Shown here piece by piece: positions 10,830 through 64,000 of a stretch of 64,000 nucleotides of DNA; positions within the stretch are counted from its first letter, which is position 1; every line of letters begins with the position of its first letter. Below the pieces are notes generated by a model, which saw nothing but the letters and a program-made list of their open reading frames with translations, was not told where the DNA came from and ran no database searches. The position numbers and the translations under genes are program-made. This DNA comes from Roseburia hominis (GTDB lineage Bacteria > Bacillota > Clostridia > Lachnospirales > Lachnospiraceae): positions 62,001-126,000 of the forward strand of contig JAETOE010000002.1 in assembly GCA_021771815.1 (NCBI GenBank), written 5' to 3'.

Positions 10830-11306
10830 TTACAGTCCCCCGGCGATTTTACAGACGTTGGTCCATGCAAGCGGCTTAGCGAACTGCTCCAATTCCGGAA
10901 TCGTCAGTTCGATCGCACTGTTGCCGCTGCCGCAGGCAGGGAACACCGTTTCGAACCGCTTCAACGATTCATCCAGATAGACCTCTACACCGTCTTCGAT
11001 CCCAAACGGGCAAACGCCGCCGACGGCATGTCCGATCCGACGCTCCACCTCATCCGGCGCCAGCATCTTCGCTTTCGTGTGAAAAAACGCTTTGTACTTC
11101 GTATTATCAATCTTAGTATCTCCCGCGCACACAATTAACACCGCGCGATCCTCCACCGCGAAGGACAGCGTCTTTGCAATCCGGCAGCCCTGCGTATGCA
11201 GCGCCTGCGCCGCCAGTTCGACCGTCGCAGACGACGTGTCAAATTCCTGTATGCGGTCTGAAACGCCGCACGTTTCCAAATATGCTCTTGCTCTCTCTAT
11301 TGACAT
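10830..11306 (-). CDS. YbaK/EbsC-type aminoacyl-tRNA deacylase
   Basis: The 158-residue protein belongs to the YbaK/ProRS-editing family that hydrolyses mischarged Cys- or Ala-tRNA(Pro). Visible features are AKTLSFAVEDRAVLIVCAGD, the IGHAVGGVCPFG motif and VYLDESL. The start MSIERA (11306) follows GGAG; an upstream ATG exists at 11336. It is a single gene between rimP and the tRNA-Glu genes. Confidence 0.85.
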   Translation of the reverse strand: MSIERARAYLETCGVSDRIQEFDTSSATVELAAQALHTQGCRIAKTLSFAVEDRAVLIVCAGDTKIDNTKYKAFFHTKAKMLAPDEVERRIGHAVGGVCPFGIEDGVEVYLDESLKRFETVFPACGSGNSAIELTIPELEQFAKPLAWTNVCKIAGGL

Positions 11307-11397
11307 TTTCTTCACTCTCCTATCAAGGCATATCATACTATATTTCGCATGAATTGTACACGTTTTTCAGATTTTTAAAAAAATTCTAAAAAAGGGC

Positions 11398-29881: not shown

Positions 29882-31174
29882 TCATAATGTGTGGATCACT
29901 TCAACCAGATCAGAACGCTTCGTCAGATACCAGCCGGACTTTAATTTGTAGAAGTCGCCGCTTTCCCCGACGATTGTGAAGATCTCCCCGTATTTTGCCA
30001 CGCCTGCTGCCGCTGCATTGTAGTCGGGAACTGATCTATAATTCACGCCGTCGCTTCCCTTGTATATGATCTTCGCATATCCAGAAAGTGCCTTTTCTTC
30101 GCTTGTATTCTGGTTCCCTTCGCCTGCTCCCTGCTCTCCGATAATCGCTGCAAGGTTTTTCAGAATAGCTGCACCATAATTTGCGCCAGCCGCCCAGCCT
30201 TTGCCGTTCGGATTTTCTTTTTGTCCCAGCCATTCAACATATTCTGCACAACCTCTTTGAACATACTTGAAGCGCGGATCTACGCAGGCATTTTTCAGTG
30301 CTTCTGTGGATCCATAGGCTTTCAAGTGCTGGATCTGTGCGCGGATTCCTTCGCGCATAGTTGCGAAGCTGTTGCCCTTCATGCCGTTCGACGTCACGCC
30401 CATTCCGCAGAAATTGTTCTGATTCAACGTCACTGCACTTCCTTCGAATTTCAAGTGTCCCGTTTCAACGGAAGTCTGGGCTGCTGCCACGTCACCGCGA
30501 ACGCCCTCTGCGTCGCCTTCTTCAATGAACAGTCGTGCCATATCCAGTGCAAAAGAAGCAGTGTCTGGATTGTTCTTGATGTAATATTCTGCAATCTGTT
30601 CGGCAGACGCTACGGAACGCCCCATGATTCTTGTGAAGCCTTCTGTTGTGCCTTTCTGTGCGATTGCTGCCTTGAATTCCTGCCATGTTTCTTCCGTTAC
30701 ATTGTAGACATACGGATTCGGGCAAATTTTCCCCGTGACGTCATAATGGCGAATGACATGATCTGCGGGAATATTGTACTTCTTCATAAGCTGCCGCGTC
30801 AACTCTGCTGCTGCCGCGACTGTTTCTTTTGTGAAATACCAGTCTTTGTCAGTAGCGGAAAGCGTTGCCGTGTTTCTCTTTTTGACTGCCATTTCGATTC
30901 CGATTGAATTCGAATTGCGGCACTCTTTATGCGTGTATGAATTTGCGCCACAGTGCCAAGCCACGTCGTCGTCGTCAACGATCTGGAAGACTTCGCCTGC
31001 ATGTCCTACCGCGTAATGTGCCGACGCGCCTGCGTACTCTCTCGCCCAGTATTGCGCCAGATTCTGTGCGGTTGCAAGTCCACCGAAATAATGGATCACT
31101 ATGTATTTGATTCTTGCTGTGCTGTTTTTATCCGTGAAGTTGATCTTCGTCAAATAATTTCTGTTGATATTCAT
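29882..31174 (-). CDS. Phage endolysin: amidase plus glucosaminidase plus SH3-like end
   Basis: The 430-residue lysin has an N-terminal Amidase_2 domain (YIVIHYFGG, HYAVGHAGEVFQ, HYDVTGKICPNP), which cleaves MurNAc-L-Ala. A middle region (about 185-345) shows ETGHLKFEGSAVTLNQNNF and GMKGNSFATMREGI, typical of mannosyl-glycoprotein endo-beta-N-acetylglucosaminidase domains. The C terminus (about 365-430) resembles an SH3 wall-binding domain. It overlaps the preceding 51-residue frame (ATGA) and is the last phage gene. Confidence 0.9.
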   Translation of the reverse strand: MNINRNYLTKINFTDKNSTARIKYIVIHYFGGLATAQNLAQYWAREYAGASAHYAVGHAGEVFQIVDDDDVAWHCGANSYTHKECRNSNSIGIEMAVKKRNTATLSATDKDWYFTKETVAAAAELTRQLMKKYNIPADHVIRHYDVTGKICPNPYVYNVTEETWQEFKAAIAQKGTTEGFTRIMGRSVASAEQIAEYYIKNNPDTASFALDMARLFIEEGDAEGVRGDVAAAQTSVETGHLKFEGSAVTLNQNNFCGMGVTSNGMKGNSFATMREGIRAQIQHLKAYGSTEALKNACVDPRFKYVQRGCAEYVEWLGQKENPNGKGWAAGANYGAAILKNLAAIIGEQGAGEGNQNTSEEKALSGYAKIIYKGSDGVNYRSVPDYNAAAAGVAKYGEIFTIVGESGDFYKLKSGWYLTKRSDLVEVIHTL

Positions 31175-32478: not shown

Positions 32479-33150
32479 TCACGCTTTCTGTGCTGCTTCG
32501 TAGTCTTTCAGCACTTCCGACTTGTATTTGTCCGGAATCTGTGCGCCATAGTAAATGCCGCTTAACTCTTCGACATTCTCTGCGCCCTTGATCCATGCGT
32601 TCAAGCTGTTGCAATAGGTTGTGTGATATGACACAAACTGCATTGCGGCTGTGATGATCGCCGTCATGTCTTCGGCAGAATAGTATTTGCAAAGCTGCCC
32701 GTCTTCATGGTATTCAAGCTTTGCCACTCCTGCCGCAAGCTGGCTTTGTTTGCCGAACAAATTGATCTGATCTTTTTCTGTCAGACTGATGTGTTCTGTC
32801 GTGCCGTCTGAAAGTGTAACGTCAACGCCTGCAAAAATCGTGCTTTCACAGCGGTTTGACACTTCCGCAAGCTTCGCAGTTCTGATCTGTTCTGCGTCCG
32901 GCTGCTGTTCTTCCTGCTCCGCATAGATTGTGCCGTCGTTTGAATAGATTGTCGCGTCTTCAAGCGTCCTATATACAGTGGCATAACCTTCATATTTCGC
33001 CACTGTGCGCCCGTCGTCAGATACAATTTCAATCACAGACGCGTCTTTCCCTTTAATGCTCCGATCCGCCTGCACAAGCAACATATTTTGTGCGACTTTC
33101 TTGACAGATCCTTCGAATATTGTTTCGCTTCCTTTGAATTTGAATTTCAT
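32479..33150 (-). CDS. Phage protein of unknown function (DUF4376-like C terminus)
   Basis: The 223-residue protein has a small beta-rich N-terminal part and a C-terminal region (about 95-223) with LSDGTTEHISLTEKDQINLF that resembles the DUF4376 fold seen in phage tail-fibre neighbours. Its start lies 98 nt inside the 3' end of the reverse transcriptase gene; an internal Met at 33084 would shorten the overlap. Function unknown. Confidence 0.65.
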   Translation of the reverse strand: MKFKFKGSETIFEGSVKKVAQNMLLVQADRSIKGKDASVIEIVSDDGRTVAKYEGYATVYRTLEDATIYSNDGTIYAEQEEQQPDAEQIRTAKLAEVSNRCESTIFAGVDVTLSDGTTEHISLTEKDQINLFGKQSQLAAGVAKLEYHEDGQLCKYYSAEDMTAIITAAMQFVSYHTTYCNSLNAWIKGAENVEELSGIYYGAQIPDKYKSEVLKDYEAAQKA

Positions 33151-34291
33151 GCGCTTCTTCCTTTCCTTTCCAGTTTTCTATAAACAGTTCATTGAAAAGC
33201 CTGTCCATGTTCTGCACTGTACGCCATGACATTTTGTGTTTCATGTAGCCTTTCCACGATTGATATTGCTGCCGTACTTCTTCAAATGTGATTCTGCCTT
33301 CGTCAAGTTTCTTTTTCAGCTTTTTCAGCTTCCTTCTTTCGCGCGTTACTGCCTGCCGACAAGGGCGCATGATCACTTTTCCGCTGTCTGTCAGTCTGAA
33401 TTGTGTTTTCAGAAACGTGAAGCCGTGTTTCATTGATACTTTCCGCGTTTTCCTCTTATTCACAACAATTCCTATTCTTTCATAGATTGCGAATAGTGCT
33501 TCGATTGCCGCGTCTGCTTCTTCTTTTGTCCGAAATGCCATGAATGTGTCGTCCATGTATCGGATATACGCGCGGATCTGCAACACTTCCTTTGCGAAAT
33601 GGTCTGCTTCATTCGGGTATATCGTGCCGACTATCTGTGAAATTTGACTTCCCAGACCGCAGCCGACTTCCCCAAAGGCTTCCACAAATAGCATTATGAA
33701 TTCAACCACTTCTTTGTCGGTAAAATGCTTTTGCAAAATCGTTCGAATGTACCAGTGTTGCATATTCCCGAAGAAGTTCGTGAAATCAATTAAGACAATC
33801 ACGCCTTCATTGCTGCCCGTCTTTCTGTAATACTCCCGCAGGAAGAAGGCGACGCGATCAATCGTCGCATGTGTTCCCCTTCCTTTAATGCAAGCCATAT
33901 TGTCTGAAATAATTGTTCTTGTCAGTATCGGCACAAGAACATTGTCGCAGGCTGATCTTTGAACCACTCTTTCTGATATGTGAACGCTGCTAATGTCCCG
34001 CAGCTTTCCGCGTTCCATAATCGTGAAATTATGAAAGCCGCGTCTTATGTCTTCGCCTGCAAGAAGCTTCATGTGTGTTTCGTATGTCTTCCGAAGAAGG
34101 CTTGCTTCATATCTCTGTACGCTGCACTTCCAGCGCACACCCTTCTTCGCTACGTCAAACGCATTCAGTAGATTTCCATAATCGAAAATCGCTTCCAGTT
34201 TTCCGTGTTCGTCGTTGACTTTCTGCTTCTTCCGCCTTCTTGCTTCTTCTCTTCGAAGCCGTCTGGCGGCTCTTCTTTCTTCACTTGTCAT
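33053..34291 (-). CDS. DGR reverse transcriptase
   Basis: The 412-residue protein is a group-II-like reverse transcriptase of the diversity-generating retroelement type. Catalytic motifs are IDFTNFF (Asp169) and YMDD (245-248). Between them is GSQISQ (214-219), the GxxxSQ form characteristic of DGR enzymes. The start at 34291 follows GGGGTG; in-frame upstream codons to 34372 are possible. It should copy the template RNA at 34494-34623 with errors opposite adenines. It lies downstream of target gene, Avd and template in the standard order. Confidence 0.95.
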   Translation of the reverse strand: MTSEERRAARRLRREEARRRKKQKVNDEHGKLEAIFDYGNLLNAFDVAKKGVRWKCSVQRYEASLLRKTYETHMKLLAGEDIRRGFHNFTIMERGKLRDISSVHISERVVQRSACDNVLVPILTRTIISDNMACIKGRGTHATIDRVAFFLREYYRKTGSNEGVIVLIDFTNFFGNMQHWYIRTILQKHFTDKEVVEFIMLFVEAFGEVGCGLGSQISQIVGTIYPNEADHFAKEVLQIRAYIRYMDDTFMAFRTKEEADAAIEALFAIYERIGIVVNKRKTRKVSMKHGFTFLKTQFRLTDSGKVIMRPCRQAVTRERRKLKKLKKKLDEGRITFEEVRQQYQSWKGYMKHKMSWRTVQNMDRLFNELFIENWKGKEEAHEIQIQRKRNNIRRICQESRTKYVACAGGSEH

Positions 34292-34493
34292 AAAACACCC
34301 CGCATACATAAATTTTGCGCCGCTATGTACATAAACAGCTGACATGAAACAAGGCTGCGCGATCCTTGCCATGCAAGCAGCGTCCGTCAGCTGTTGTCGG
34401 TGTGTAAATTTACCCTTTCGGGACGGTCAAGCATTCCTTATTTTCTTTGTGCCACTGCTTTCGTTTCCTACTCGGACGGGGCATTGAAATAAT
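34292..34493 (-). ncRNA. Non-coding spacer between DGR template repeat and reverse transcriptase
   Basis: About 200 nt without a gene separates the template repeat from the RT start. In the well-studied Bordetella phage DGR, the equivalent segment of template RNA is needed for cDNA priming, so this stretch is probably part of the functional template RNA. By sequence alone I see no further feature. Confidence 0.6.
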
Positions 34494-34623
34494 CAGAGGG
34501 GGACGCCAAGCGGCGTCGAAGCATTGTTGTTGTTGGGATTACCATTGTTGTTGACATTACAAAAGTTCGTCGTGTTCGACGCGTTCGGGGACTCACACCA
34601 CCAGTTGGAACGTGAACCCTGCT
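34494..34623 (-). repeat. DGR template repeat (TR)
   Basis: This 130-nt non-coding repeat matches the variable repeat of the adjacent target gene except at 13 positions, and 107 nt of the distant target except at 14. Every difference is at a T on the plus strand, that is an A on the coding strand. Read in the target frame it would encode 13 Asn (AAC/AAT) codons, the usual DGR design that lets adenine mutation reach many residues. A GACGCC-AAGC-GGCGTC palindrome is at 34502-34517. Confidence 0.96.
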
Positions 34624-34652
34624 TTCAATACTTAACCGATAATATTGCGATC

Positions 34653-35096
34653 CTACTGCTTTTCAGCTGCCGGATTGCTTGCTTTCTTCATTTCCTTGTA
34701 TCTTTGATTGTCTGATTTTCTCCATGCTGTGATATATCCTTTTTCAGAAATAATCATGCCGACAATCTCTTTCAGCTGTGCGCTGTCTATCCCTCGCACG
34801 CTACGCAGGCTTTGAAGCTTTTGCAGAAGCTTTTCGCAGTCCCCGCTTGCGCGTTGCTGGTATCTCCGTCGATCAATCGCGTCTTCGTTGCTCTTCACAT
34901 AGATCGTGTTCGCGTCCACCACGTTATCGACCAGCTGTTGTGCCGTCGCTATGATCGGCATAGCATACACAAATCGGTATTTCTTCGGAATAACTTCTTC
35001 TTTCATGCAAAATTCGATCAGCTTGTCTTGAATGTCAACTGCCGTCTGAAAGAACTGCATTTCTGATTGTTCGCGCCTGCTTTTCAATACACTCAT
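34653..35096 (-). CDS. avd: Avd-type DGR accessory protein (four-helix bundle)
   Basis: The 147-residue, helix-rich, mostly basic protein lies between target gene and TR, exactly where accessory variability determinant genes occur. Avd proteins form barrel-shaped pentamers of four-helix bundles that bind the RT and template RNA. I assign it by location, length and predicted helicity; I see no diagnostic short motif. Confidence 0.8.
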   Translation of the reverse strand: MSVLKSRREQSEMQFFQTAVDIQDKLIEFCMKEEVIPKKYRFVYAMPIIATAQQLVDNVVDANTIYVKSNEDAIDRRRYQQRASGDCEKLLQKLQSLRSVRGIDSAQLKEIVGMIISEKGYITAWRKSDNQRYKEMKKASNPAAEKQ

Positions 35097-35124
35097 ATCT
35101 TTTCACACCTTCCGTCTTTGGTTT

Positions 35125-35149
35125 ATCACGCCGCACGCGGCGGCGTGAT
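35125..35149. other. DGR hairpin/cruciform downstream of VR1
   Basis: A perfect 10-bp inverted repeat (35125-35134 with 35140-35149, 5-nt loop) lies about 32 nt beyond the VR1 end, after the target stop codon. It has no U run on the coding strand. The equivalent place after the second target also has a GC-rich hairpin, and both share GTGATTCAAGATTA next to the repeat; TR has neither. This matches the cruciform used for target recognition in known DGRs. Confidence 0.8.
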
Positions 35150-35168
35150 TTTTTCGCGTGATTCAAGA

Positions 35169-36095
35169 TTATGTATCAAAGCAGAGGGGGACGCCAAGCG
35201 GCGTCGAAGCATAGTTGTGGCCGGGACGACCATTGTTGTAGACACTACAAAAGTACGTCGTGTTCGACGCGGCCGGGGACTCACACCACCAGCCGGAACG
35301 TGAACCCTGCTCCGCTTTCCCGAAGCCCAGTCCTTTGTTGATATGAGCAAGGGATCCGCGGAAGATCTCAAACTGAACAGCATTTCCGTTTCCATAGCCA
35401 ACTTCTGACCAGCTGTTGAACCCCCAGACTTCTACTTCGGAAGGAAGCCACAACTTCTGATCTTCCTGCCAATCCCATGATCCTTTTTTGCTGCACAGAC
35501 GTTTGTTCGTTTTGATAACCGCTTTCACATCAGCTGGCAGCATATTGTAAATTGTTGTATTCAGCGTCGTTTTCAGTGCGCTTGCAGGGAACCCGCCCGT
35601 GTTTGTGTTGGTTTCATTCATTTTGTATGTGGTTGCAAGACAATCGCGACTGATCCAGTGAATGCAGTTGTTATTGTTTGTCGCATAGCCTTTTCTTGTG
35701 TTGATTCCTGCGACTTCCATTCGAACTTTTTCACCGTTCGTCAGCATAATATCTTTATAATCTCCGACATTGATTCCCGAAAAGTCGCCCGCAGTTTCTT
35801 TTTCGTCGATTTCCGCCCATGCGAACGGCAATTCTTTTCCGAAATACCCATAGGAAGCGCGGATTTGTGCCTGCTTGTCTTCCAGTGCCGCAGCCACAAG
35901 ATAACCTTCTGGAATGTAGCCTTTTTCCGTGATGTCAAGCGTGTCAACTACTCCCAGCGAAGTTTTAACAGCTTTCATCAATTCAGAATATTTGATTGTC
36001 TTTGTGCCGTTTGACGTTTCCACGATCAGAATGTCGTCGGCTGTGATTTCTGTTGTCTGTGCGATCTGATTGATCGTTTTTTCTGGTAAACTCAT
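35169..36095 (-). CDS. DGR target protein 1, probable receptor-binding tail protein (DUF6273-like)
   Basis: The 308-residue protein follows the tail-fibre gene, so it is the likely adhesin at the phage tip. The N-terminal part (MSLPEKTINQIAQ...) resembles tail-associated proteins; the C-terminal ~170 residues form a DUF6273/C-type-lectin-like module (LWLPSEVEVWG) ending in the variable region (about 262-305). Diversified residues sit at template Asn codons, for example in WWCESP-x-AS and NNGRPGHNY. Diversification would change host-receptor binding. Confidence 0.92.
   Translation of the reverse strand: MSLPEKTINQIAQTTEITADDILIVETSNGTKTIKYSELMKAVKTSLGVVDTLDITEKGYIPEGYLVAAALEDKQAQIRASYGYFGKELPFAWAEIDEKETAGDFSGINVGDYKDIMLTNGEKVRMEVAGINTRKGYATNNNNCIHWISRDCLATTYKMNETNTNTGGFPASALKTTLNTTIYNMLPADVKAVIKTNKRLCSKKGSWDWQEDQKLWLPSEVEVWGFNSWSEVGYGNGNAVQFEIFRGSLAHINKGLGFGKAEQGSRSGWWCESPAASNTTYFCSVYNNGRPGHNYASTPLGVPLCFDT
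35182..35311 (-). repeat. DGR variable repeat 1 (VR1)
   Basis: It aligns over 130 nt with TR. All 13 differences are at coding-strand adenines of TR (nine are A to G, with A to T and A to C also present). The 3' coding end, with the palindrome GACGCC-AAGC-GGCGTC, is invariant and probably the initiation of mutagenic homology. Confidence 0.96.
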
Positions 36096-42456: not shown

Positions 42457-42463
42457 TTTTCAT

Positions 42464-43174
42464 TTACTGCTGCTTTGCTGCTTCCTGTGCTGCAAGAAAT
42501 TCTGCGATAATTTCTGCTTTTACGGTCTTTGTGATTGTATATCCCTTCGCTGTCGCAATCAGTTTGATCTGTTCAATCGTCAGCACGTTCAATTCCTCTT
42601 CTGTGTACTCTTCCTTGTACTCTTCGTCGATTTCTTCAACGAACTGGATCAGCGTGCCTTCGTCGTCCTGCGGCTTGCAGCCGAATTCTGCGTCAATAAC
42701 CGTCGCGGAATCTGTCGCCCATGTGATCGTGAATCCGGCTGAATTTCTGCCGACAATAACAAGATAGCAATTTCCTTCCACTGGATCTTTATGCACAAAC
42801 AGAATGACGTACTGCTTGCCGTCGTCGTTGGAAGTTCCGCCCACTTTCAAGATTCTGTACTTTCCCGCTGTTTCCAGTCTTGCCGTAGAACACAGCTTCT
42901 GCAATGTTTCTGCGTTCCATGTGAAAAGCCCCGTCTTGAATGTTGCTTCTTCGTCAGTCAGCACTTCTTTCACGATATGCCCCAGATCGTCTTTTTCTGT
43001 GGTCATTGTCGGCTTGTATTCGATCGACGCGCCGCCCTTGATCCAGCCTGCACGCTTTTCGTCGGTCATCATGGTTTCGATCAAGGTTGCGAATTCTGGA
43101 AGCTGCCCGTTGAATTCATCAATGAACACTTCACCGCTTCCCATTGTGACTTTTTCTTTTGATCCTTTTTTCAT
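42464..43174 (-). CDS. Major tail (tube) protein with C-terminal HeH-like domain
   Basis: The 236-residue protein lies between the tail completion gene and the chaperones, where the tube protein is expected, and shows a beta-rich N-terminal region (SGEVFIDEFNGQLP). The last ~47 residues (EEELNVLTIEQIKLIATAKGY...) form a small helical domain that is nearly identical to the C terminus of the major capsid protein. Confidence 0.85.
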   Translation of the reverse strand: MKKGSKEKVTMGSGEVFIDEFNGQLPEFATLIETMMTDEKRAGWIKGGASIEYKPTMTTEKDDLGHIVKEVLTDEEATFKTGLFTWNAETLQKLCSTARLETAGKYRILKVGGTSNDDGKQYVILFVHKDPVEGNCYLVIVGRNSAGFTITWATDSATVIDAEFGCKPQDDEGTLIQFVEEIDEEYKEEYTEEELNVLTIEQIKLIATAKGYTITKTVKAEIIAEFLAAQEAAKQQ

Positions 43175-44550: not shown

Positions 44551-44605
44551 ACTTCACCGCCTTCGACAATGGCAGCAAAGCTTTTCAGCCCTGCTGCCGT
44601 CCTTT

Positions 44606-45949
44606 TTATTCCTGCTCTGCTGCTTCCTGCGCTGCAAGGAACTCTGCGATCACTTCCGCCTTCACAGTCTTTGTGATCTCATATCCCTTGTACGCTGCAA
44701 GACCTTTGATCTTGTCCACTGTCAGCACGTTCAGTTCTTCTTCTGTCCATGCAGTCTTCTCGACCACAACTTCTTTTGTGCCAGTTTCTACGACATAGAC
44801 CATAGGTTCAAGCGCGGAAATGTCAAGCACAGTGAATGCGTTGTTGTCAAGCGGCTTTCCGTTGCCGTATAAGAAAGCTGCATACACTCTTTCGCGCTGT
44901 AAAAACTTGTAGCTGTCGTCATATTCGATCACGCCGTCTTTGCTTGTTCCCATTCCCATGAAGTATTTGTCAGCAATTCCGACCACGGCTTTTCCTGCCG
45001 GAACTTCTTCGCACTGAATCACGGTTGTCGGGTACGGCAGCACATCATTTGCAAACGTACCGTCTGGGCGCTGAACAGTTGTTGCAGGCATTACTTTTGC
45101 GAAATAGTCAACTGGATTGACTACCATGATCACCCCTGCCACTTTTCGCGGACGGTTGTTTCTGGAAAGTGCAAGCTTCGCAATGACTCCGCCGTACTGC
45201 TGCGCGTCGAATCGGGTGATCTTTACGGCTGCTTTGTCTGGGTACGGATCTTCTTCTGTTTTGCTTGCGGAAAGATCCTTCATCATTCCGATCGGCATAT
45301 CAATTCCAGTACCAGCCACAATCGCTTCTTCAAGTCCGCAGTAGATCGCGTCTTTTAATACCTCGCGAACGTAGCTGTCAAGCCACTGTGCGCCCAGATC
45401 CAGCATAGACTTCGCAACCGGCAGCCATGCAGTCAGGGAATTCAAAGTCATGTTCATTTTTTCGAATTCGCCTTCCAGTTCCTTTGTTACCTCTGCCGTA
45501 ATTGCTCCCCATTTTGCTTTCTGTTTTCCGTTTTTGCTCAAGATCCACTCTGTCACATAGGTTGTGTTCTGGAAGTTGATCGCTGCAAGAAGCGGGTGTT
45601 CTCTTCTTAAATCTTCGAACACGTCTTCAATGATTGTTTCCGGCATTGTCACTTCTAAAGAACTAAGTGCCTGCTTTGGATTGTCGGATTTCATTGCTTC
45701 AATCAGCTTTTCATAATACTTCTTTTCGCTGGAAGTCAGCTGACGAAGCCCTCTGGAAGATAACGCCTGCGCGTCAAGCTGTTCAATGTTTGCCACAGAC
45801 TGCGCCCTTTCCATGATCTCGTTCTGGATCCCCTCTGCCATGTCTGCCATTGCCTGCGCTACCCGTTCGGGATCGTTTGTCTTCAATGCTTCATTGAACT
45901 TCTGTGCAAGTTCTTCTCTGGTTAATGCCTTTACGTCTTTACTTTTCAT
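44606..45949 (-). CDS. HK97-fold major capsid protein with C-terminal HeH-like domain
   Basis: The 447-residue protein has a helical N-terminal scaffold-like region (about 1-100), then the HK97 fold (SSLEVTMPETIIEDVFEDL, IVAGTGIDMPIG, VVNPVDYF). The last ~47 residues (EEELNVLTVDKIKGLAAYKGY...) are an added helical domain shared with the tail tube protein. It directly follows the ClpP-like maturation protease. Confidence 0.93.
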   Translation of the reverse strand: MKSKDVKALTREELAQKFNEALKTNDPERVAQAMADMAEGIQNEIMERAQSVANIEQLDAQALSSRGLRQLTSSEKKYYEKLIEAMKSDNPKQALSSLEVTMPETIIEDVFEDLRREHPLLAAINFQNTTYVTEWILSKNGKQKAKWGAITAEVTKELEGEFEKMNMTLNSLTAWLPVAKSMLDLGAQWLDSYVREVLKDAIYCGLEEAIVAGTGIDMPIGMMKDLSASKTEEDPYPDKAAVKITRFDAQQYGGVIAKLALSRNNRPRKVAGVIMVVNPVDYFAKVMPATTVQRPDGTFANDVLPYPTTVIQCEEVPAGKAVVGIADKYFMGMGTSKDGVIEYDDSYKFLQRERVYAAFLYGNGKPLDNNAFTVLDISALEPMVYVVETGTKEVVVEKTAWTEEELNVLTVDKIKGLAAYKGYEITKTVKAEVIAEFLAAQEAAEQE

Positions 45950-57598: not shown

Positions 57599-58291
57599 TT
57601 AGTTTGCTTCTGCGGCTGGATCCTCTGTTTCCGCTCCGGCTTCCTCTGCCGCTGCCGTGTCGTCGCCAAAATCAACGCCCAGCTGTACAACAGAAACTTC
57701 ATACGCAGTCATTAAATACGGCGTTGCGCCTTCGATCTGCTTCTGATAATCTCTTGACTGGAAACGCCCTTCTACTTCGACATAAGTGCCTTTTTTTATG
57801 TTCTCCATTGCGTCCGCCACATTCTGCCAGCAAATGCAGGGAATGAAGCTGACGCTTCCGCGCCTTCCTTTGACCGAAACCATAATGTCGGCAATGTGTG
57901 TCCCCTTTGCAGTCTGGCGCACGCGCGGTTCCTTGCAAATGTGACCACACAACTTCACTTCGTTCAGCTTGCTTTCAACCTTTTCCAGCAGCTGCATTTT
58001 CTCTGCTGCAATAAAGATCTTCACAGTCGGCGCAGTTGGTACGATTTCTTTTTCATTCTCTGTTCTGATTTCCCCGCGCAGTCTGATTGCTGATCCGTCG
58101 TCCAGCTTTTCAAAGTCTTCCTGCGCGATTGCAGATCCTTCGAACTGCAAGATCAGAATGTCTTCCGTTCCGCTCTTTCTTTCTGCCACAATCTTTGTTT
58201 CGAATTTTCGACGTTCAAATTCTGACGCGTCAAGAATCATCTGCGGCTTTCCTTTGATCACTCCTGCGATCTTGATTTTGTTGTTTCTCAT
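57599..58291 (-). CDS. Tandem OB-fold protein, SSB-like
   Basis: The 230-residue protein has two OB-like halves. The second (about 115-205) shows LCGHICKEPRVRQTAKG, VKGRRGSVSFIPCICW and GTYVEVEGRFQSRDY, the pattern of SSB folds. The acidic C terminus is rich in Ala/Glu. It is distinct from the SSB at 51129 and could serve recombination. Confidence 0.8.
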   Translation of the reverse strand: MRNNKIKIAGVIKGKPQMILDASEFERRKFETKIVAERKSGTEDILILQFEGSAIAQEDFEKLDDGSAIRLRGEIRTENEKEIVPTAPTVKIFIAAEKMQLLEKVESKLNEVKLCGHICKEPRVRQTAKGTHIADIMVSVKGRRGSVSFIPCICWQNVADAMENIKKGTYVEVEGRFQSRDYQKQIEGATPYLMTAYEVSVVQLGVDFGDDTAAAEEAGAETEDPAAEAN

Positions 58292-59763: not shown

Positions 59764-60411
59764 TTAAATTTCGAAGCAGAGGGGGACGCCAAGCGGCGTC
59801 GAAGCACTGATGTGGCCGGGATAACCAACGTTGCCGACAAAACAAAAGTCCGTCGTGTTCGACGCGTGCGGGGACTCACACCAAAACCAATCCGTGTCCG
59901 TTCCTTCTTCGCCGATCTTCTTCATTCTGTTTCTTCTGTCCTTAAAGAACGGGAACTGCTCTTCCCCTTCAATGTGCCTTGCGAAGATCTCCCGTCCGTG
60001 GATCTCATATTCAGACGGCAGCCACAGCTTGTCTTCACACTCCACAACTTCTTCGTATTCCTTCACATACTGTCTGCGAAGTGCTGGCTTGATAACTGCT
60101 GCCAGATCGTCGGGAAGAAGCGCGAATATCTCTGTGTTCAGCTTCTCCCGCAAGTCTGAATTCTTCCAGCCACAGTCATTCGTTCTTTTCTTGTTCATAG
60201 GCATTTCTTCTGAAAGACATTCCTTTGAAACGAACGCTGTGCGCTTTCCATTGCCCGCAGTCCTTACGACCTGCGCCGTGATCTTCTCCCCCGTTTTCAA
60301 TTCGAACTTTACTTCGTCGCCCAGATTCAGCTTGATCTTTCCTTCTTCAATCCCTGCTGCCAGTGCGCCCCAGTCTGTCTGCTGCTCCTGCTTTGTGATT
60401 AAAATTGCCAT
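59764..60411 (-). CDS. DGR target protein 2 (DUF6273-like), remote from the retroelement
   Basis: The 215-residue protein shares the DUF6273/C-lectin-like C terminus with target 1: KLWLPSEYEIHG and CESPHASNTT then ASTPLGVPLCFEI. It lacks the tail N-terminal part and instead starts MAILITKQEQQTDWGALAAG. Variable region is residues 177-212. It lies in the early replication region, so it may be a secreted or cytoplasmic binding protein rather than a tail protein. Confidence 0.9.
   Translation of the reverse strand: MAILITKQEQQTDWGALAAGIEEGKIKLNLGDEVKFELKTGEKITAQVVRTAGNGKRTAFVSKECLSEEMPMNKKRTNDCGWKNSDLREKLNTEIFALLPDDLAAVIKPALRRQYVKEYEEVVECEDKLWLPSEYEIHGREIFARHIEGEEQFPFFKDRRNRMKKIGEEGTDTDWFWCESPHASNTTDFCFVGNVGYPGHISASTPLGVPLCFEI
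59777..59883 (-). repeat. DGR variable repeat 2 (VR2)
   Basis: It matches 107 nt of TR (34494-34600) with 14 differences, all at TR coding-strand adenines. Beyond 59883 the sequence diverges at other bases, so the homology ends there. Only two of twelve template Asn codons remain Asn. Confidence 0.95.
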
Positions 60412-61086: not shown

Positions 61087-62073
61087 TCAGAACATTTCCG
61101 CAGTCGGCATGTTTCCAGCATGTCGGCTGTTTTTGAATCGCACGTCTTCTTCCCCGTACTCTTCGAATATATTTCCGTATTCGTCCATTCGCATTTGACC
61201 GTCGCAATTAGTGTCCTGCATCCACCACTTGAACACTTTTTCGCCCGACGTCCATTTCATTTTGTTTTCAAGACCTCTTTTTTCTCTTTCAATCAGCATT
61301 TTTTCAAATGCCTTTATATATGCAGCCCTATATTTCGGGTATTTTTCAAATTCAGCCCAGCGTCTGTCGCCCGCCATAGGGCAACCGATACAGCCGACGC
61401 GTGTCTGTCCGCAGCCGTAAAGTGGATTGATACATATATTTTCTTTTTTGATATACCACCATAAGAATTCGTCGTCCCAGTCTATCAGCGGATTGATCAA
61501 GACTTTGCTTGTTCTGTAACAATGTTCCACAATTCTTCTGCTGTCCGCGTTGTCTAAGTTAAAAAGTATCACGCCGCCTTTGTCGGTCAACGCAAAGTTT
61601 TCGTTATTCTTTGTCTTTTCTTTCAATTCCTTCTTCGGGCGTGGGAATGTGACGACGCCTTGATTCTTTTCGCGGTTTCTGCTTTCTGCTTTCCGAACTC
61701 CCGTGACCAGCTTTTCGCCATGTCCGCTGTATTCTTTCAGATCTGAACAGCAGTATCGCATTAAGCGCGTCGGCGGCGTGCAATGCTGAACGATCAGCTG
61801 CCACATGGTCTTCTGCGGATAAAGAATATTAAAGGCTATTCCCATAGCTTCGTATTTTCTTTTTTCTTCTCTCACGAAGTAGACTGTTTCCGGCGCGTCA
61901 ACGGTTGTGTGATTGTGCTGTATTGAAAAATTCAGATTGTATTTTTCTTTGCACTTCAACGCAATATGCTTCAAGACGCTGCTGTCTTTCCCGCCGCTAT
62001 CTGATATTACGCAACCGCTATTCCCGCATAGCAGATTCAGAATTTCGATTGCGTTTTCTTCTAATCTCTCCAT
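61087..62073 (-). CDS. PAPS-reductase/ATP-pyrophosphatase-fold protein
   Basis: The 328-residue protein has the P-loop SDSGGKDSS (26-32), then RYCCSDLKEY (108-114) and CGQTRVGCIGCP (Cys221, 228, 231), which may bind zinc or iron-sulfur. This is the PAPS-reductase-like family often found in phages and related to DndC of DNA phosphorothioation. No dnd genes are nearby. Function in the phage is unknown; nucleic-acid thiolation is possible but unproven. Confidence 0.82.
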   Translation of the reverse strand: MERLEENAIEILNLLCGNSGCVISDSGGKDSSVLKHIALKCKEKYNLNFSIQHNHTTVDAPETVYFVREEKRKYEAMGIAFNILYPQKTMWQLIVQHCTPPTRLMRYCCSDLKEYSGHGEKLVTGVRKAESRNREKNQGVVTFPRPKKELKEKTKNNENFALTDKGGVILFNLDNADSRRIVEHCYRTSKVLINPLIDWDDEFLWWYIKKENICINPLYGCGQTRVGCIGCPMAGDRRWAEFEKYPKYRAAYIKAFEKMLIEREKRGLENKMKWTSGEKVFKWWMQDTNCDGQMRMDEYGNIFEEYGEEDVRFKNSRHAGNMPTAEMF

Positions 62074-62605: not shown

Positions 62606-62679
62606 TACTGCATTTCTGTATATTTGAATCATAATACTGCAAAACAGTTTTGTCAATGCTTTTTTACTGCTTTTCTGTA
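62606..62679. promoter_or_regulatory. Three phage repressor operators
   Basis: Three related sites of 15 nt share TACTGC at the left: TACTGCATTTCTGTA (62606-62620), TACTGCAAAACAGTT (62635-62649) and TACTGCTTTTCTGTA (62665-62679). Centres lie 29 and 30 bp apart, about three helical turns. They overlap the cro promoter and flank the cI promoter. This is a lambda-like operator set. Confidence 0.8.
62628..62656 (-). promoter_or_regulatory. Promoter of the cro-like gene (early operon)
   Basis: TTGACA (62656-62651) and TATGAT (62633-62628) with 17-nt spacing on the minus strand. Operator 2 (62635-62649) lies between them. Confidence 0.78.
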
Positions 62680-62744: not shown

Positions 62745-63122
62745 ATGACAATCCAAACAGAAAAGAAGTTAAAAGAAAATGTACAAAAAAATTTGATTTT
62801 TTATAGAAAAATGCGGAAAGTGACACAGAAGCAGCTTGCCGACTTTCTTGAAATCGGTGTATCAACCGTTTCTGGCTGGGAACGCGGCGCATATACACCA
62901 GACATTGACACTTTATTTTTAATTTGCAATTTCCTTCAAGTCACTTTGAATGATATGTGTGGAATTTTCAACGATAATGAACAGCTGTCAGAAGCAGAAA
63001 GCAAGCTATTGAATACATATAGATCTTTGAATCAGAGTGGAAAAGACAAGCTGCTGGAACGCGCGGAAGAACTTCGTGATCTCGGATATGTGGCAAAAGG
63101 GGACGCAGCAAAAATGGCATAA
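62745..63122 (+). CDS. CI-like XRE-family repressor
   Basis: The 125-residue protein has an N-terminal HTH (KVTQKQLADFLEIGVSTVSGWERGAYTP split about 28-55) and a C-terminal helix (LLERAEELRDLG). It lacks a peptidase domain, so induction is not by RecA-type self-cleavage. It should bind the three operators at 62606-62679. Confidence 0.88.
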   Translation: MTIQTEKKLKENVQKNLIFYRKMRKVTQKQLADFLEIGVSTVSGWERGAYTPDIDTLFLICNFLQVTLNDMCGIFNDNEQLSEAESKLLNTYRSLNQSGKDKLLERAEELRDLGYVAKGDAAKMA

Positions 63123-63390: not shown

Positions 63391-63520
63391 AACTCCGTTT
63401 TGAACGGGCTGCTGTAATATTCTTCGCAAAAATATTATAGCACAAGCCCTTCAAATAAACAATCAGAAAAAACGGGGGCTTGTTTTTTTGCGCCCATTTT
63501 TCGGAAAGAAGGTGCTATAT

Positions 63521-64000
63521 ATGGCAATGAAACGTGCAAACGGCGACGGCTCCGTCTATAAGATAGGCGGAAAACGTCGCAAGCCCTTCGGGGCAAGGGT
63601 GACGATCGGCTGGCAGCTGGATCCCGAAACGGGGCGATCAAAACAGATATACCAGTCGATCGGCACATTCGCAACCCGCGTGGAAGCAGAAACGGCTTTG
63701 AACAACTATCTTCAAAACCCCTATGACATTGAAGCGCACAAAATTACATTCGCTGGTGTGTATGATCGCTGGTCTGCTGAATACTTTGAAACTTTGAAAA
63801 ATCCTTCCTCTGCCCGCAGCTACAAAGCCGCCTATGCCTATTGTGAACCGCTGTATAATATTCGAATGCGCGACATTCGTGTGGAACACATGCAGGGCGT
63901 GATCAAAGACGCGGAAGTCGGGGACGCCACAAAAGGGCGAATGAAGTCGCTTTTCAATCTGATGTATAAATGGTGTATGATCCATGAAGTCGTTGAAAAG
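63521..64000 (+). CDS. int: Tyrosine integrase, N-terminal part (cut by window edge)
   Basis: The visible 160 residues start MAMKRANGDGSVYKIGG behind AAGAAGG. They contain the arm-binding (AP2-like) region and a core-binding SAM-like region (TFAGVYDRWSAEYF, MRDIRVEHMQGVIKDA). The catalytic domain lies beyond 64000. It would integrate the phage, likely at the 29.7-29.9 kb boundary. Confidence 0.9.
   Translation, partial: MAMKRANGDGSVYKIGGKRRKPFGARVTIGWQLDPETGRSKQIYQSIGTFATRVEAETALNNYLQNPYDIEAHKITFAGVYDRWSAEYFETLKNPSSARSYKAAYAYCEPLYNIRMRDIRVEHMQGVIKDAEVGDATKGRMKSLFNLMYKWCMIHEVVEK

Follow-up and report, generated by a model that had tools for sequence, protein, structure and literature searches.

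The best-known targets of phage diversity-generating retroelements (DGRs) are tail adhesins. Remote, apparently non-structural second targets have already been published, and the accessible parts of the papers describe them for Quimbyvirus, with a second target outside the structural module (PMC8008677), for four species of gut prophage in which a second variable repeat (VR) is distal (PMC12629997), for the two targets of Roseburia phage Shimadzu (Cornuault 2020, as cited in PMC11792537) and for the two-target DGRs of Lelie and CP11 (PMC11792537). Among papers searched by title and start of abstract, with subscription journals mostly outside reach, none unites small early DUF6273 targets as one class. 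Here, we analyzed a 64,000-nucleotide stretch of a Roseburia hominis genome (GCA_021771815.1, contig JAETOE010000002.1, positions 62,001 to 126,000; hereafter the window), which carries a prophage with a DGR. We consider it very probable that this DGR is complete and that one template repeat (TR) serves two targets, VR1 in a tail-region gene and VR2 in an early-module gene, with VR1 altering adsorption and VR2 altering the ligand of a protein predicted to be intracellular. The remote second target is of a kind already known; what stands out here is the unusually clean parallel rewriting of a tail gene and an early gene.

The ungapped 129-bp alignment of VR1 and TR contains 13 mismatches, every one of them at a TR adenine; adenines are 32 of the 129 TR bases, and the chance of such a result is about 1.5e-9. 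VR2 aligns over 107 bp with TR columns 23–129 and shows 14 mismatches, again all at adenines, which account for 28 of the 107 template bases beneath it (chance of about 3e-10). By codon position, 16, 15 and 1 of the TR adenines fall at positions 1, 2 and 3, and the reading frame is the same for both VRs, which fits a template that alters residues while seldom creating stop codons. A scan of both strands of the whole window finds exactly two TR partners, VR1 and VR2. The scan threshold of at most two non-adenine mismatches per 50 bp, also applied to the other phages, same-genus genomes and IMG/VR records below, builds part of the adenine bias into its matches, and pseudo-templates serve as the control: none of 60 random 129-bp segments of the prophage had a VR-like partner in the window in the same kind of scan. 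Searched against its own genome, the TR returns itself, VR1, VR2 (C85:121777–121883, corresponding to 59777–59883 of the window), a weaker match on contig C56 (E = 1e-4) and chance-level rows.

An earlier note on this DNA had placed a complete DGR at 33053–36095 and proposed that it hypermutates a tail protein. The element is real and complete, and rewriting of the tail-region gene is well supported by the DGR-type reverse transcriptase (RT), the adenine-only changes and the variation of VR1. However, it extends further than claimed, to the second VR, and the account was incomplete in that the same TR feeds an early-module gene. The order given, target gene 1 with VR1, avd, TR and RT, all on the minus strand, is borne out by the open reading frames (ORFs), the searches and the repeat alignment, and both RT motifs named, YMDD and GSQISQ, are present in the RT ORF. 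By analogy with BPP-1, the RT together with Avd would copy TR RNA into adenine-mutated complementary DNA (cDNA), which would replace a VR beside its GC hairpin; such replacement would give each target gene a new ligand-binding face on a C-type-lectin fold. VR1 variants would then change tail binding at the cell surface, as in receptor switching, and VR2 variants would change the ligand of a putatively soluble, early-expressed intracellular protein.

Natural variation points the same way for both repeats. Scanning of genomes turned up a prophage of 98% identity in Faecalicatena faecalis AGMB00832; this one pair was compared over colinear pieces. The earlier note had suggested looking for VR variation in relatives, and here both VRs differ (VR1 at 18 of 129 and VR2 at 18 of 107 positions) while the TR is unchanged (0/129); all 36 VR differences are at template-adenine columns. 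Outside the TR and VRs, 580 of 32,330 aligned bases differ (1.8%), with 17/785 and 14/506 differences in target genes 1 and 2 outside their VRs, 9/444 in avd and 26/1,320 in the RT gene. On this sequence evidence, both VRs have evidently been rewritten since the two prophages split, solely at template adenines. Diversification could instead lie in the past, with the element now silent and the VR differences inherited by recombination. The accessible part of a Faecalibacterium study, in which the Lelie VRs are without read variation peaks (PMC11792537), would suit such a history, as would an early stop codon in the relative's long RT ORF, though it lies ahead of the likely start codon. We consider this unlikely, given the restriction of the differences to template-adenine columns between flanks that are about 98% identical, the unchanged TR, and the open RT and avd frames and the hairpins of the window. 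At the right end, from 63334 to past the integrase and including presumed host sequence, identity is 87.8% over 3,234 columns, which indicates related hosts; no wide host jump is claimed. Two more divergence hot spots between the prophages, neither of them a VR, lie at 43050–43100 and 29950–30000 (11 and 9 differences per 50 bp).

The RT also separates from other RT types. A profile of six related RTs has its best Protein Data Bank (PDB) match in chain 8ub7 (328 aa, E = 1.6e-41), which we take to be the DGR RT of BPP-1 and whose length equals that of Brt; a group II intron RT reaches 7.5e-21. GxxxSQ is the DGR-type RT motif and GxxxSP the intron-type one, a rule that fits both BPP-1 Brt (GSLTSQ) and RTs with GGNLSP. 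In a 19-row tree with weak deep forks, the window RT joins the RTs of Shimadzu and of an IMG/VR record (support 98/98), apart from three GGNLSP RTs (99/100). The comparison with other RT types that the earlier note called for thus groups it with RTs of phages having TR/VR pairs and not with intron-type RTs. A group II intron or retron type of RT beside a coincidental repeat is almost certainly wrong. It could appeal to a weak NCBIfam group II maturase match (83.1 bits, cut-off 300), and the retron_St85 model gives 27.9 bits (cut-off 235), with no search for msr/msd made; the TR/VR pattern confined to adenines refutes such an origin, and the 8ub7 profile match, the tree position and the GxxxSQ in place of GxxxSP speak against it. 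The RT probably starts at 34291 (MTSEERR...) and not at 34372, because in the F. faecalis relative codon 14 of the long ORF is a stop and because Shimadzu (MTSEERR) and Dulem virus 34 (MTSEQRR) have RTs that start at this point. The 3' end of the RT gene overlaps the start of the next ORF (32479–33150, DUF4376, tail-fibre-like) by 98 bp at 33053–33150. Separately, one same-genus genome (G016) has an RT with an open frame of 466 aa at 11 places, and the single copy inspected has GGNLSP.

About 25 kb separate target gene 2 from the RT; it belongs to the early module of this prophage, and we call it non-structural by gene position. A promoter-like site adjoining a CI-like repressor gene lies about 2.2 kb upstream of it, with the integrase gene beyond; seven such promoter-like sites were found in the region against 5.4 expected from shuffles. 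The genes around it encode PAPS-reductase, OGG-like, SSB, Rep, methyltransferase and ParA/ParB proteins. Its AlphaFold2 model (pLDDT 85.7, pTM 0.85) has, by structure matches, a predicted C-type-lectin-like fold; the VR1 structure model was too weak for a fold search. In a PDB sequence search the VR2 family has only weak matches to SusD (E of about 0.007) and SiaP (E of about 0.8).

The two-target layout is not confined to the window. Two adenine-specific VRs each are present in Shimadzu (mismatches at adenines 16/17 for VR1 and 14/14 for VR2), Dulem virus 34 (13/13 and 15/15), Faecalibacterium phage Lelie (17/17 and 15/16, with 50,000 of 53,400 bases scanned) and Acutalibacter phage Fontainebleau (16/18 and 15/15), all four chosen through a VR2-like match or a paper. 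One same-genus genome (G077) has the layout as well (11/12 and 11/12), and another (G044) carries Shimadzu at 100% identity. A search of viral contigs with the single VR2 protein gave no match, whereas a family alignment search did. In IMG/VR, 39 records have a VR2-like protein and 17 of these also have a DGR RT; when the VR places in the 17 were compared by hand, the VR2-like protein had a second VR distinct from the RT-adjacent one in 13 (210 of 213 mismatches at adenines), a count of records selected by protein that include some close relatives and not of independent events. The VR2-like protein is itself the first VR in three of the 17 (G106, G108, G117), and the TR was not found in one (G112, partial RT match). 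The TR regions tried in two loci (L037, 25900–26400; L038, 36200–36800 and 34450–34800) gave no repeat match. Among eight records picked from RT matches (7 of 81, plus G040), a remote second VR is present in two (MT835491 and nd12); several of the eight are fragmentary, and the scan covered parts of MT835491, Pioen and G040. The R. hominis genome itself has a second DGR, with a TR on C56 (L031, 10135–10213), a tail VR (11290–11368; 13/13 at adenines) and a remote VR inside an early-type DUF6273 gene of 185 aa (C85:2806–3363; L048, 1474–2031; 8/8). This C56/C85 pair is probably a single prophage divided by a gap in the assembly, or else reflects targeting between prophages.

Recurrence bears on whether VR2 is a passive by-product, that is, a duplicated DUF6273 gene that kept its recognition hairpin and is rewritten without selection. 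The two target proteins are homologous and have 3' flanking sequence in common, as this would predict. We regard it as quite improbable, since the same layout is found in phages with RTs 27–50% identical to that of the window, and since VR2 genes in 12 loci examined have open frames and ribosome-site-like sequence upstream. Furthermore, the motif DR(R/K)NR is kept in at least 14 of 22 members of the VR2 class (a lower bound, as the G087 and G115 proteins also have it, counted in another frame) and in 0 of 22 VR1 genes, several of which are cut by locus ends.

Both VRs of the window are followed by a GC hairpin, and the TR is not. With G097 and G115 excluded, 17 of the 19 two-target sets were compared: hairpins of 7 bp or more stand after VR1 in 15, after VR2 in 13 and after the TR in 1, against a background of 85 in 1,800 random 90-nt windows. 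Loops are of 5 nt in 10 of the 15 VR1 and 9 of the 13 VR2 hairpins and are often CTTGT-like. The GRNA tetraloop was called only at VR1 of Dulem virus 34 and of G089, with shorter GAAA hairpins seen by eye at VR2 of both, and neither VR of Lelie or G109 is followed by a hairpin of at least 7 bp. For BPP-1 the downstream hairpin is required, and the accessible part of the same paper gives 4-nt GRNA loops for phage DGRs (PMC3240598).

For the VR2 protein there is a rival reading. It could be a second virion adhesin, coded early and packaged on the tail or capsid, so that both targets serve adsorption. The accessible text of Baykov et al. proposes an Mtd-like binding role for the DUF6273-only targets of nd4 and nd12 (PMC10743442), that of Roux et al. 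gives tail-protein annotations for most viral targets in three DGR clades (PMC8144416), and the two target proteins of the window are 39% identical over 202 columns. We think this possible but doubtful. Against Pfam, 11 VR2-type proteins give DUF6273 alone, plus DUF3310 in nd12, with no tail-type domain; hydropathy shows no export signal in 14 VR2-type proteins, and target protein 2 shows neither signal peptide nor membrane segment. In addition to those in the window, early-type neighbors (replication, partition, methylation, PAPS-reductase or anti-repressor) stand at the VR2 gene in 8 of 11 IMG/VR loci examined. The DUF3310 fusion of the remote nd12 target is a hint of a place inside the cell; the accessible text of one paper links DUF3310 to nucleotide kinase activity in T7 gp1.7 and reports it in predicted early lytic regions (PMC10700055). 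A PAPS-reductase-family gene also lies near VR2 in an IMG/VR phage (L058, 7508–8971).

Most likely, the ligand of the VR2 protein is a factor of the host or of a rival element encountered once the phage has entered, which would give the protein a role in counter-defence or exclusion. Several points weigh against a two-target DGR with an intracellular VR2 protein. Present activity, timing and the location of the VR2 protein are deduced from sequence, and gene position is no proof of an intracellular role, as the product of an early gene might yet be packaged into virions. Three of the 11 IMG/VR loci (L050, L051, L084) have no replication-type neighbor, and L050 follows an endolysin gene. Six of the eight RT-picked records are single-VR and nd12 was already known as two-target, so VR2 is not essential. 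The Avd assignment comes from PHROGs, with no match of the avd product in Pfam, NCBIfam or PDB sequences. Beyond this locus, we propose only tentatively that small early DUF6273 proteins are a recurrent, antibody-like class of DGR-diversified intracellular proteins that recognize changing host or rival factors, such as defence proteins or products of superinfecting phages.

Table 1 Features of the two-target DGR and its early-module setting (window coordinates).
Feature	Position	Strand	Evidence or remark
DGR reverse transcriptase	33053..34291	-	YMDD, GSQISQ; 34291 is the probable start, longest ORF extends to 34372
Template repeat TR, 129 bp	34494..34622	-	Repeat alignment with VR1 and VR2
avd, 147 aa	34653..35096	-	PHROG 3206 'Avd protein of DGR', E 7.3e-14
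GC hairpin after VR1 (10-bp stem, 5-nt loop)	35125..35149	-	
Target gene 1, 308 aa, C-terminal DUF6273	35169..36095	-	Pfam PF19789, E 3.4e-9; VR1 at 3' end
VR1, 129 bp	35182..35310	-	13/13 mismatches to TR at template adenines
SSB-like gene, downstream of target gene 2 (early-module marker)	57599..58291	-	Pfam/PHROG
GC hairpin downstream of VR2, 9-bp stem, 5-nt loop	59726..59748	-	
Target gene 2, 215-aa DUF6273/C-type-lectin protein	59764..60411	-	Pfam, E 1.2e-12
VR2, 107 bp, 3' end of target gene 2	59777..59883	-	14/14 mismatches to TR at template adenines
PAPS-reductase-family gene, upstream of target gene 2	61087..62073	-	Pfam/PHROG
Promoter-like site heading the minus-strand early gene run	62628..62656	-	11/12 consensus bases; consensus match alone
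CI-like repressor (HTH_3)	62745..63122	+	Pfam
Tyrosine integrase, running past the window end	63488..64000	+	Phage_integrase on the part outside the window

Target gene 1 probably encodes a tail-tip protein, judging by its position among tail genes: on the minus strand it comes after tape-measure, Dit and Gp37-like genes and then a 311-aa structural gene. The RT gene is followed on the same strand by the DUF4376 gene, a holin gene and an amidase gene. No exact repeats longer than 13 bp were found between the two prophage ends compared. The 3' ends of the Ig-domain and major head protein genes (42463–42604 and 44605–44746) are about 77–79% alike, perhaps through a common C-terminal domain.

If both targets act as proposed, one mutation machine would serve the entry and post-entry barriers together. 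The window offers a clean natural pair, in which an early-module protein is diversified as strongly as a tail protein, and the layout recurs in Roseburia, Faecalibacterium, Acutalibacter and uncultured phages. What a phage gains by randomizing an early protein is a question now testable in cultured lysogens, such as the Shimadzu carrier.

Like the DGR of BPP-1 (mtd, avd, TR, brt), that of the window has the order target, avd, TR and RT, adenine-specific rewriting, a C-terminal VR and a GC hairpin after the VR. Unlike BPP-1, it has a remote second target, and the hairpin loops are mostly of 5 nt compared with the 4-nt GRNA of the accessible text (PMC3240598). Shimadzu, with an RT 50% identical to that of the window, also has a tail target and a small early DUF6273 target, each with an adenine-specific VR; it has an annotated tail sheath, whereas no sheath family was found among the structural ORFs searched in the window. 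As far as the accessible parts of their papers describe, Quimbyvirus and the four prophage species share with the window a second target outside the structural module and near methyltransferase or counter-defence genes, although Quimbyvirus lysogenizes Bacteroides and has its second target on the opposite strand and the window has a DUF6273 target on the strand of the DGR. The remote nd12 target (L145, 31285–32178) fuses DUF3310 (T7 gp1.7-like) to a diversified DUF6273, whereas the window target is without DUF3310, and the small Lelie target is divergent, at 17% identity. We found the remote VR in both Lelie and nd12, and in the accessible accounts of Lelie and CP11 (PMC11792537) and of nd4 and nd12 (PMC10743442) one TR feeds two DUF6273 or C-lectin targets, as it does in the window.

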